Source of the DNA: Clostridiaceae bacterium
GTDB lineage: Bacteria; Bacillota; Clostridia; SK-Y3
Length of the DNA stretch: 40,497 bases
Reading direction: 5' to 3'
Assembly: GCA_012735465.1 (NCBI GenBank)
Contig: JAAYHJ010000056.1
Coordinates: forward strand, 1 to 40,497
Below, piece after piece: positions 4,212-40,497 of the stretch. The notes beneath the pieces were generated by a model. It did no database searches. It saw nothing but the letters and a program-made list of their open reading frames with translations, and was not told the DNA's origin. Both the position numbers and the translations under genes were made by a program. Position 1 is the stretch's first letter, and each line of letters opens with the position of its first letter.

Positions 4212-4673
4212 ATGACAAATAAAATAGAAGTTAAGATAAAATATGTGCGTAAGGAAATTGGTACGAGCATTAAACCGCCCTTTTATGCCACTTCCGGCTC
4301 GGCAGGTATGGACTTGTCTGCTTGCATAGAAAAGCCTGTTACGATAAGGCCGGGCGAAAAAATAATTGTGCCTACCGGGATTGCAATACAATTGCCTTCA
4401 AAAGAATATGCTGCTTTAATTTTTGCCCGAAGCGGACTGGGAATAAAACATGGTATTACCATGTCCAACGGGGTAGGGGTTATTGACAGCGACTATACGG
4501 GTGAAATCATGTGCGGTCTGGTGAACTTAGGAGCCGAACCCTACACAATACAGCCGGGGGACAGGATTGCACAAATGGTATTCGTACCCATTGCAGTAGT
4601 ATCCCTTACCGTTGTAAATGAGCTCCATGAAACAGAAAGGGGCAGCCGGGGGTTTGGCTCCACAGGATATTGA
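4212..4673 (+). CDS. dut: dUTP diphosphatase (dUTPase)
   Basis: Hydrolyses dUTP to dUMP and pyrophosphate, keeping uracil out of DNA and supplying dTMP synthesis; trimeric, cytosolic. All five family motifs are present in order: GSAGMDL (about 29-35), ARSGLG (about 76-81), GVGVIDSDYTGE (about 87-98), PGDRIAQMV (about 116-124) and the glycine-rich C-terminal arm RGSRGFGSTG (about 143-152). The length of 153 residues is typical. GGGGAG lies before the ATG at 4212. It follows the U32 gene by 35 bases and is followed closely by the NusG-domain-II gene, so it sits inside the same run of genes. Confidence 0.95.
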   Translation: MTNKIEVKIKYVRKEIGTSIKPPFYATSGSAGMDLSACIEKPVTIRPGEKIIVPTGIAIQLPSKEYAALIFARSGLGIKHGITMSNGVGVIDSDYTGEIMCGLVNLGAEPYTIQPGDRIAQMVFVPIAVVSLTVVNELHETERGSRGFGSTGY

Positions 4674-37971: not shown

Positions 37972-38000
37972 TTGACAATGCATATGGGAAAATATACAAT
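37972..38000 (+). promoter_or_regulatory. Sigma-A promoter of the TetR-family gene
   Basis: TTGACA (37972-37977), 17-base spacer, TACAAT (37995-38000). The likely start site near 38007 is only nine bases before the operator, so a bound repressor would block it. Confidence 0.75.
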
Positions 38001-38015
38001 TATAGTAGCACGATC

Positions 38016-38035
38016 TTAACTAACTGGTTAATTAA
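38016..38035. promoter_or_regulatory. TetR operator, copy 1
   Basis: TTAACTAACTGGTTAATTAA is a near-palindrome just after the promoter of the TetR gene. The other copy at 38824-38843 is the same site in reverse orientation: it shares TTAACTAAC, a central G and the TTAA ends. Likely autoregulation site. Confidence 0.7.
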
Positions 38036-38055
38036 TAAAATTGGAGGAGAAGGAT

Positions 38056-38778
38056 TTGGAGAAAACTTCAGGAAGCGAGGCAAGGGAAAGAATAATCAAT
38101 GCGGCCATAGAGCTTTTTTCTCAAAAAGGTTATGATGCAACCCGGGTCAGCGATACAGCAAGTACTGCCAATGTCAACAAGGCACTTATATATTATTATT
38201 TTAAGAGTAAACAGGATATCCTGGATTTTATGGTTGATTCCTTGCTTGATAATGCAATGTCCATTGCATTGGATTTCATTCAGACAAATATTGTACAAAT
38301 GATTAAAAACGGGTATCTGCACATTAAACCTGACCGATTACACTTTGCCAGTGATGAAGCTATAAATATTTTTATTCAGAATTCTGTTAAATTTTATGAG
38401 AAGGTAGTTGATTATGTTATTGAAAATAAAGACATTATACGTATTTTAATGTTGGAATCCCTTAAAAGCGGAAAACATCAGAATTCCCTGTTCCATTTTA
38501 TGAAATTCATGAATAAGGATGAAAAAAATCCCCTTTTTAAAATTATATCCGGTGCAGAACAGGACTTTGTTTATTCGCATGAAATGATATTGTTTAGATT
38601 TTTCTTTTCTATTATACCTATTGTTAGTTTTGCAGCTTACTTTGATGATTATAAAGCAGTAAGTTCACTAAGCGATGATGAGCTTCGAAGTTCTTTTTTG
38701 AGTGTTTATAAGATAATTATCACTTCGTTGATTTCAGGCAGGGATATTTTATTAAGGAATAATAGCGCTGATACTTAA
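38056..38778 (+). CDS. TetR/AcrR family transcriptional regulator
   Basis: A 240-residue dimeric repressor. The N-terminal helix-turn-helix is clear: ERIINAAIELFSQKGYDATRVSDTASTANVNKALIYYYFKSKQDIL (about 10-55); the rest is helical and would bind an unknown ligand. TTG 38056 is chosen since GGAGGAGAAGG lies just upstream; TTG 38041 overlaps that site. An operator lies before this gene and another before the radical SAM gene that follows, so it probably controls both. The stop is followed only by a weak AT-rich hairpin, so some read-through into the radical SAM gene is expected. Confidence 0.9.
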   Translation: MEKTSGSEARERIINAAIELFSQKGYDATRVSDTASTANVNKALIYYYFKSKQDILDFMVDSLLDNAMSIALDFIQTNIVQMIKNGYLHIKPDRLHFASDEAINIFIQNSVKFYEKVVDYVIENKDIIRILMLESLKSGKHQNSLFHFMKFMNKDEKNPLFKIISGAEQDFVYSHEMILFRFFFSIIPIVSFAAYFDDYKAVSSLSDDELRSSFLSVYKIIITSLISGRDILLRNNSADT

Positions 38779-38823
38779 TTTTTTTTAAGTTAAATGAGCA
38801 CAGCAATACATATTTAAATAAAA

Positions 38824-38843
38824 TTAACCAAACGGTTAGTTAA
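38824..38843. promoter_or_regulatory. TetR operator, copy 2
   Basis: TTAACCAAACGGTTAGTTAA lies 28 bases before the ATG of the radical SAM gene. Its reverse complement, TTAACTAACCGTTTGGTTAA, aligns with the copy upstream of tetR at 16 of 20 positions. No clear promoter is seen, but TATTTAAAT just before it could serve as a -10 region. Confidence 0.7.
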
Positions 38844-38870
38844 TAAAACAACATATTATAGGGGGTAGAA

Positions 38871-40235
38871 ATGATGAATAGGATTCAGAAAACGGCGGTT
38901 AATTTGCTGCTGAACTACATTTCAGACAATCCTATGGGAAGGTTGCCTAAGATGTTGGAGATTGCTGAAAAGTTGGATAGGGGTGGTTTACATTCTGTTC
39001 AGATAAACGCTTTGCGTAATATATTGCTGGATGAGAACAATATTTGGCACACCTTTACTGAAAATCTGGTACAGGAAGTAGACACAAAGCTTTTGCAGAA
39101 GTTTGTAGAATGCTTTATAGTTAATGCAAACCTTGAAGGCGAAGAGCGTGCACGTGCTATTGAGAAAAAATACGACTGCAATATTCCATGGGCGATTTTG
39201 ATGGACCCCACAAGTGCGTGCAATCTGTCCTGTACAGGATGCTGGGCCGCACAGTATGGAGAGAAAAATAATCTGTCTTATGAGATACTCGATTCTATTT
39301 GCCAACAAGGCAAGGAATTGGGTGTTTACTTTTATATATTCTCCGGCGGTGAACCCCTTATACGCAAGAAGGATATTATTAAGTTGTGCGAAAAACATCA
39401 GGATTGCTATTTCTTTGCTTTCACCAACGGTACCCTTGTGGATGATGAACTGTGCAGGGATATTCTGCGGGTAGGCAACTTTGCACTGGCATTTTCCATT
39501 GAAGGGGATGAAGAAGCTACCGACATGAGGCGTGGTAAAGGTACCTATCGCAAGGTAATTGAAGCAATGGAACGAATGAAAGCACACAGGCTTTTATTTG
39601 GATACTCAACCTGTTACCATCGCTATAATACCGAAAGTGTTGGTTCCGATGAATTTGTTGACGATATGATTGCCCGTGGCTGCCGTTTTTCTTGGAACTT
39701 TACCTATATACCCGTTGGAAAGGATGCACGTACAGATCTTCTCGCTACTCCCGAGCAACGAGCATATATGTATCGGCGTATCCGTGAAATCCGCGAGAAG
39801 AAGCCTATTTTTGCAATGGATTTCTGGAATGACGGAGAGTATGCCGGCGGATGTATTGCGGGCGGAAAGCGCTACCTGCATATTAATGCTGCCGGGGATG
39901 TGGAGCCGTGCGCATTCATTCATTATTCCAACGTAAATATTCATGATGTAACCCTTTTGGATGCACTGCGTTCTCCTTTGTTTGTGGCCTATCGCAGAAA
40001 CCAACCGTTTAACAACAATCCCTTGCGTCCATGTCCTTTGCTGGACAATCCCGAAATATTGGCATCCATGGTTAAAGAATCGGGTGCGAAGTCAACAGAT
40101 TTGGAAGCCCCGGAAGATGTGGATGTACTTTGTGCCAAAACAACAGAAGCAGCCAAGGCATGGGCGGATGTGGCCGAACGCCTGTGGGCAGAAAATCCAA
40201 AAAGCCGGGAAAGCTACTGTAAAGCTGCCCGTTAA
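38871..40235 (+). CDS. Radical SAM protein with SPASM/Twitch-like C-terminus, substrate unknown
   Basis: A 454-residue cytosolic iron-sulfur enzyme. The N-terminal 100 residues are helical and not recognised. The radical SAM core starts at about 105 with CNLSCTGC (C117, C121, C124), then FSGGEPL (about 157-163) for SAM binding. Further cysteines in GGCIAGG (about 324), VEPCAF (about 345) and LRPCPLLD (about 386) could hold an auxiliary cluster, like a SPASM or Twitch region. The substrate may be a peptide, lipid or small molecule; no precursor peptide is seen next to it. GGGGG precedes ATG 38871, and ATG 38874 is an equal alternative. It follows the TetR gene and its operator, and a terminator closes the pair at 40262. 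Confidence 0.85.
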   Translation: MMNRIQKTAVNLLLNYISDNPMGRLPKMLEIAEKLDRGGLHSVQINALRNILLDENNIWHTFTENLVQEVDTKLLQKFVECFIVNANLEGEERARAIEKKYDCNIPWAILMDPTSACNLSCTGCWAAQYGEKNNLSYEILDSICQQGKELGVYFYIFSGGEPLIRKKDIIKLCEKHQDCYFFAFTNGTLVDDELCRDILRVGNFALAFSIEGDEEATDMRRGKGTYRKVIEAMERMKAHRLLFGYSTCYHRYNTESVGSDEFVDDMIARGCRFSWNFTYIPVGKDARTDLLATPEQRAYMYRRIREIREKKPIFAMDFWNDGEYAGGCIAGGKRYLHINAAGDVEPCAFIHYSNVNIHDVTLLDALRSPLFVAYRRNQPFNNNPLRPCPLLDNPEILASMVKESGAKSTDLEAPEDVDVLCAKTTEAAKAWADVAERLWAENPKSRESYCKAAR

Positions 40236-40261
40236 ATTCTATCAAATATTTAAATTTGTAT

Positions 40262-40292
40262 AGCCGGTTAACAAAAAACCGACTTTTTTTTA
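40262..40292 (+). terminator. Rho-independent terminator after the radical SAM gene
   Basis: AGCCGGTT (40262-40269) pairs with AACCGACT (40277-40284) with one mismatch, followed by TTTTTTTT. It closes the tetR-radical SAM unit. Confidence 0.8.
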
Positions 40293-40414
40293 AGTTCAAA
40301 ACTATTAATGGAGTATGGAATTTATCAAGAAAAAAGTACTGGGTAAATGAGTAACCGGATAGCCAAGTCGAAGCATAGTGTAAAATAATTGTAGGACATT
40401 TTAAGGATAAAAAA

Positions 40415-40483
40415 ACAAGAGATCCTCACTTTTTGATACAATAGAATCACCATCAAAAACCTTTGAAAAGGAGGATCTCTTGT
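40415..40483. repeat. Nested inverted repeat covering a ribosome binding site
   Basis: ACAAGAGATCCTC (40415-40427) is the exact reverse complement of GAGGATCTCTTGT (40471-40483). Inside it TTTTTGAT (40430-40437) pairs with ATCAAAAA (40452-40459). The right arm contains part of the GGAGG at 40469-40473 and reaches the GTG at 40482, so the folded RNA would hide the start of the following gene. Confidence 0.75.
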
Positions 40484-40497
40484 GAATACTATTGTAA
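40482..40497 (+). CDS. Start of a gene cut by the window edge, possibly a transposase
   Basis: GTG AAT ACT ATT GTA (MNTIV) follows AAAGGAGG by eight bases, an ideal ribosome binding site. Only five codons are visible, so the product cannot be named. The inverted repeat hiding the start resembles the fold-back control of insertion sequences, which makes a transposase a reasonable guess but no more. Confidence 0.4.

Follow-up and report, generated by a model that had tools for sequence, protein, structure and literature searches.

A fold-back hairpin in the left end of an ISLre2 insertion sequence that probably guards the transposase gene, with a predicted escape through RNA started in the loop

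The window, the whole 40,497-nucleotide stretch analysed here (contig JAAYHJ010000056.1 of a Clostridiaceae bacterium), ends within an insertion sequence. Directly upstream of the insertion lie a gene for a TetR-type regulator (38041-38778) and then a radical SAM/SPASM gene. The features from this gene to the contig end are as follows.

38871..40235, + strand: radical SAM/SPASM protein, 454 aa, co-directional upstream gene (PF04055, E 4.9e-18)
40265..40291, + strand: site resembling an intrinsic terminator, after the radical SAM/SPASM gene and before the element (terminator scan)
40365..40373, no strand: target-site duplication, left copy AAGTCGAAG (8/9 identical to the L063 right flank)
40374..40497, + strand: ISLre2-family left end, truncated where the contig stops (repeated left ends; identity to L062)
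40374..40397, + strand: left terminal inverted repeat CATAGTGTAAAATAATTGTAGGAC, matching the reverse complement of the L062 right end GATAGTGTCAATTTGTTGTAGGAT
40381..40386, + strand: -10-like TAAAAT in the left terminal inverted repeat
40415..40432, + strand: hairpin 5' arm, first 13 nt perfect
40430..40437, + strand: inner repeat, left copy TTTTTGAT, perfect over 8 nt with the right copy
40434..40442, + strand: putative extended -10 promoter sequence TGATACAAT, situated in the loop (TGnTAnnnT, recurrent in low-GC ISLre2)
40452..40459, + strand: inner repeat, right copy ATCAAAAA, perfect over 8 nt with the left copy
40466..40483, + strand: hairpin 3' arm, which takes in the Shine-Dalgarno and the GT of GTG
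40468..40474, + strand: Shine-Dalgarno AAGGAGG, 7 nt before GTG (from sequence)
40482..40497, + strand: first codons of the ISLre2 transposase (M-N-T-I-V...), 3' part missing (same start in L062:3195-4577)

The contig stops inside the gene at the edge, which the first-pass annotation had recognized. It is not an ordinary single-copy gene: searches with the last 298 bases of the window found the left end at least 22 times in its 2.3-Mb genome, about 22 of the copies being 100% identical over at least 122 bases. The repetition begins at 40374, and nearly all copies stop 122-125 bases in, at contig ends, while matching right ends, about as many as the left ends, sit at further contig ends in this genome. 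The element is cut at 40497 because the assembly collapsed a multi-copy sequence. As the transposase gene is unassembled in this genome, it was read instead from an identical-ended copy: all 124 of 124 bases of the left end are found at positions 3087-3210 of L062 (JAAYSI010000333.1), an unrelated MAG contig from a Peptococcaceae bacterium. There the element continues into a 460-codon ISLre2 transposase gene (L062:3195-4577), whose product matches NF033529 (E 9e-97, 324.7 bits against a cut-off of 200) and PF06782 (E 1.3e-76), and ends at 4642, giving a total length of ~1.56 kb. The terminal inverted repeats are imperfect and end in C (CATAGTGT...ACACTATC). The ISLre2 family, also termed p-MULT 3, comprises Mutator-like DDE transposases (PF06782, NF033529). 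The extension through the identical copy bears out the earlier proposal of an insertion-sequence end. The accompanying comparison with IS10, a member of the IS4 family, holds for the predicted fold-back type of control but not for the family; membership of IS4 was rejected, as only ISLre2/UPF0236 and Mutator-like relatives match the transposase.

The same left end was observed in two other genomes of different lineages, at 100% identity over 124 bases in L062 and 45 bases in L048; either recent transfer or metagenome mis-binning is possible from these matches. That the L062 contig is simply a mis-binned piece of the window's genome was rejected: its GerA-side flank finds there a best match of 66% over 191 bp, and the lack of a close match implies that the element is common to different genomes. 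A search of viral contigs revealed no relative. Within the window's genome, an older left-end remnant, 95% identical, is located upstream of a greA-like gene (L009, G000:C76, 1150-1273; L080, G000:C24). The C76 copy was rejected as a complete element, the element sequence being lost after ~128 bp. The 9-10 bp flank of the L009 remnant matches a right end on another contig, which suggests that a rearrangement involved both ends of one old insertion. A 77% relative of the hairpin region (G000:C16:31026-31120), beside an S-layer-like gene, is probably a further old remnant.

Both the opposite ends and the target duplications anticipated in the first-pass annotation are present. Exact 9-mers adjoining the element are common to left and right flanks in 12 end pairs other than that of the window. 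For the window's own flank, AAGTCGAAG, the sole matching right-end flank in the genome is L063 (G000:C2:31953-32136), which begins CAGTCGAAG and agrees at 8/9 positions. Of 19 right flanks, 13 have a sigma-A type promoter whose -35 begins exactly 16 or 17 bp past the element, against 0.3 expected from shuffles; the right flank of the presumed partner L063 reads cagtcgaagATTGTATTTGACA-N17-TAATAT, followed by an ABC-transporter-like reading frame (named by eye from the translation). As published, ISLre2 and TnGBS insert 15-17 bases upstream of a -35, with the right end by the promoter, and ISLre2 elements have a terminal cytosine (PMC3942029). The window's element resembles those described there in its transposase family, 9-bp duplication, terminal C, imperfect inverted repeats and oriented placement 16-17 bp ahead of a sigma-A -35. 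It differs in the hairpin and the candidate loop promoter, which go unmentioned in the accessible part of that paper (PMC3942029).

The outer arms of the hairpin, ACAAGAGATCCTC (40415-40427) and GAGGATCTCTTGT (40471-40483), pair without a mismatch over 13 nt and, when lengthened to 40415-40432 and 40466-40483, are 89% complementary over 18 nt. This outer repeat and the inner 8-base repeat are present where the first-pass annotation had placed them, although its wording, that the repeat brackets the ribosome-binding site and GTG, needs correction: the 3' arm itself contains AAGGAGG and reaches into the GTG (40482-40484), the first two bases of which belong to the outer arm. The RNA from 40410 to 40497 folds at -26.7 kcal/mol, compared with -11.1 +/- 2.8 kcal/mol for 200 dinucleotide shuffles (z -5.7), none of which was as good, and the Shine-Dalgarno is buried in the computed fold, as had been anticipated.

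The position of the 5' end of the RNA is predicted to decide whether this burial occurs. In the RNA reading in from outside, the computed probability that the Shine-Dalgarno region (evaluated at 40469-40475) is unpaired is 0.005, compared with 0.35 in RNA starting at 40449. When the 5' end was shifted stepwise, RNAs starting at or before 40420 were computed to be masked and those starting at or after 40424 unmasked, placing the switch in the middle of the 5' arm. The computed contrast persists on heating (0.03 vs 0.50 at 55 C and 0.06 vs 0.60 at 65 C). A start at ~40449, past the 5' arm, is what is predicted for the extended -10, TGATACAAT; as this sequence sits in the loop, transcripts begun by the element itself would not include the 5' arm. 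Read-in RNA from outside the element would carry both arms, pairing the Shine-Dalgarno and the start codon, and little transposase should result, whereas RNA from the element's own weak promoter, presumably the extended -10 in the loop, would begin after the 5' arm with a usable ribosome-binding site. The dose of transposase would thereby be independent of the strength of transcription in the neighbourhood. We consider it likely that this is an ISLre2 left end with a fold-back hairpin guarding the transposase gene, escaped by RNA started in the loop; that the loop sequence acts as a promoter is suggested by its sequence and position, and reduced translation from read-in RNA by the folding model. 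The radical SAM/SPASM gene (38871-40235) is a possible source of read-in RNA, although read-in at this copy may be small since the terminator already separates that gene from the element. A bias towards co-directional upstream genes was sought among the left ends, and no strong one was seen (about 12/21, by eye).

The hairpin's strong stem and left-end location would also suit a transcription terminator or attenuator that halts read-in RNA, and there is precedent in IS200, in which one stem-loop terminates impinging transcripts while another, near the left end, hides the ribosome-binding site (PMC3196728). However, no T run follows the 3' arm, the loop, at 33 nt, is long, and the terminator scan, which reports only the 40265 site, is silent at the hairpin. 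This explanation was rejected as very improbable.

Among 398 species sampled across Bacillota, 74 had a strong ISLre2 match, with many copies in some genomes. ISLre2 genes were gathered from Bacillota genomes, and their start codons were picked by Shine-Dalgarno strength and N-terminal sequence, not by folding; L142 and L144 were excluded for unusable start codons, leaving a final set of 74 non-redundant elements. In 62 of these the start region (-22 to +2) pairs upstream better than 99% of dinucleotide shuffles, and in 48 it beats all 300 shuffles; the remaining 12 fail the 1% level. In 67/74 the last base of the 3' arm falls within -1 to +2 relative to the start codon. Median pairing is -23.4 kcal/mol for the ISLre2 elements, compared with -10.1 kcal/mol for 39 other genes from the same loci with comparable Shine-Dalgarno sequences. 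Named elements conform, among them an ISGsp3-like copy in Geobacillus zalihae (z -6.9) and an ISLre2 of Lacticaseibacillus paracasei (z -2.9).

The arm sequences vary widely across elements (ACAAGAGATCCTC, AAGAATAGCTCC, GAGGAACCTCAC, TCATACAAATC and others), yet each pairs with its own partner. When 3' arms were swapped between elements, mean pairing fell from -23.1 to -14.0 kcal/mol (sd of the swapped-arm means 0.40), and the best of 10,000 permutations reached only -15.4. Base composition does not explain this loss: low-GC elements alone fall from -21.8 to -11.9, and high-GC elements alone from -26.3 to -19.1. Abolition of the excess pairing by arm swapping shows covariation, and at most positions between -11 and -3 the base pair takes several, up to all four, of the Watson-Crick forms. 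In most of ISLre2, these comparisons show, the two arms change together so that the hairpin persists. RNAalifold on a plain MAFFT alignment gave no consensus structure, the likeliest reason being 5' arms that do not line up with one another. The masking of the transposase start in read-in RNA, central to the first-pass annotation, thus has both computed burial and covariation behind it, with silencing as the predicted outcome.

These data also bear on the reading of the repeat as a DNA feature, such as a sub-terminal transposase-binding site, with the RNA fold incidental. The repeat does lie 42-110 bp from the element tip, the zone in which some insertion sequences have sub-terminal sites, and the terminal inverted repeat is conserved separately from it. 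A binding site should keep its sequence, however, whereas the arms change while their pairing stays, as the pair types and swap tests indicate, and the position of the 3' arm is tied to that of the start codon. On arm covariation and start-codon locking this reading was rejected, and we regard it as scarcely credible.

The proposed loop promoter shows a narrower distribution than the hairpin that contains it. TGnTAnnnT starting between -60 and -40 is found in 26 of 42 low-GC elements, where 0.9 are expected and the maximum in 200 shuffles was 4, and it stands near the end of the 5' arm. Letters that never vary in a MAFFT alignment of 25 elements are TG in the extended -10, one T in the -10 and TG in the start codon. 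An extended -10 may be used because the 5' arm, being complementary to the Shine-Dalgarno region, can hardly carry a TTGACA -35. In the 32 high-GC elements the hairpin is present and TGnTAnnnT occurs in the loop of only one. When the 5' arm was removed across the family, median computed exposure of the Shine-Dalgarno rose from 0.28 to 0.47, with an increase in 53/67 elements; the predicted gain is less clear-cut than at the window's element.

The high-GC elements, with no -10 in the loop, favour an alternative in which transcription starts mainly from a promoter ahead of the 5' arm, such as an IRR -35 TTGACA joined to an IRL -10 TAAAAT in the excised circle. The hairpin would then also silence the RNA that the element makes for itself and be a general brake, possibly opened by antisense RNA, protein or heat. 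Of the 23 elements for which both ends were found, 22 have TTGACA or TTGACG close to the tip of the right end; left ends carry GTGTAAAAT or GTGTAAAGT, with TAAAAT or TAAAGT at positions 8-13. A joint of 4-6 bp would give a spacing of 16-18 bp and an RNA start near 40393, which includes the whole hairpin. Circular ISLre2 forms have been detected (PMC3942029), and in ISPpu9 a 5'-UTR hairpin that buries the ribosome-binding site is opened by an antisense RNA (PMC8450116). The published circle joints, on the other hand, are 6-10 bp, and the resulting 18-22 bp is mostly too long (PMC3942029); in low-GC elements, moreover, a well-placed extended -10 stands exactly where the RNA would skip the 5' arm. 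The ends of ISLre2 may thus form a circle-junction promoter, with a spacing mostly sub-optimal for the reported joints, but a main promoter upstream of the 5' arm appears improbable. Junction RNA would contain the whole hairpin and should therefore be silenced. In a speculative and rather unlikely extension of the loop-promoter model, the hairpin would sort three transposase RNAs, silencing the read-in and circle-junction RNAs, which carry the 5' arm, and leaving only the loop-started RNA of the integrated element to be translated.

The guard proposed for ISLre2 has counterparts in other insertion sequences. In IS10 and IS50 an inverted repeat in read-in RNA sequesters the ribosome-binding site, and the element's own promoter starts inside the repeat. 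The window's element is computed to share the sequestration and may share the promoter start inside the repeat, but its transposase family is unrelated and its repeat is different. Translational occlusion by a left-end stem-loop, as predicted for the window's element, is also found in IS200, which differs in being an HUH element without terminal inverted repeats and with a separate terminator stem-loop, whereas the window's element has one hairpin with a putative loop promoter (PMC3196728). Burial of the ribosome-binding site by 5'-UTR structure is further shared with the ISPpu9 tnp gene, where weakening mutations raised expression 26-fold; that element is a different one, and its structure is opened by the antisense RNA Asr9 (PMC8450116), which has no known counterpart in the window's element. 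Within the other Mutator-like insertion sequences, comparable start-region pairing was found in 2/2 ISKra4 and 6/19 IS256 genes (smaller samples). From this pairing, the device probably extends beyond ISLre2 to other Mutator-like elements, although it is not the rule in IS256.

Fold-back silencing of transposases is already known from IS10, IS50 and IS200, and ISLre2 is, judged by its sequences, a new family for it; the ISLre2 papers searched for it report no hairpin upstream of the transposase gene. Rfam covariance models gave no match up to E 1 in window positions 38000-40497; in 11 element loci, tRNA-Sec and BsrG, both unrelated, were all that they matched. The BsrG match (type I antitoxin RNA region) lies at L149 343-580 on the - strand, ~165 bases upstream of an ISLre2 transposase gene. 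The hairpin is a candidate RNA family absent from Rfam and, being conserved, marks the true start codon and the left end of ISLre2 elements. Fold-back control, if conserved, would explain how an element that always lands beside host transcription keeps its transposase low. If the sorting of three RNAs were true, then, with insertion upstream of host promoters, transposase output would be independent of the site and off after excision. For ISLre2 as a family, the fold-back hairpin gives a simple, testable rule.
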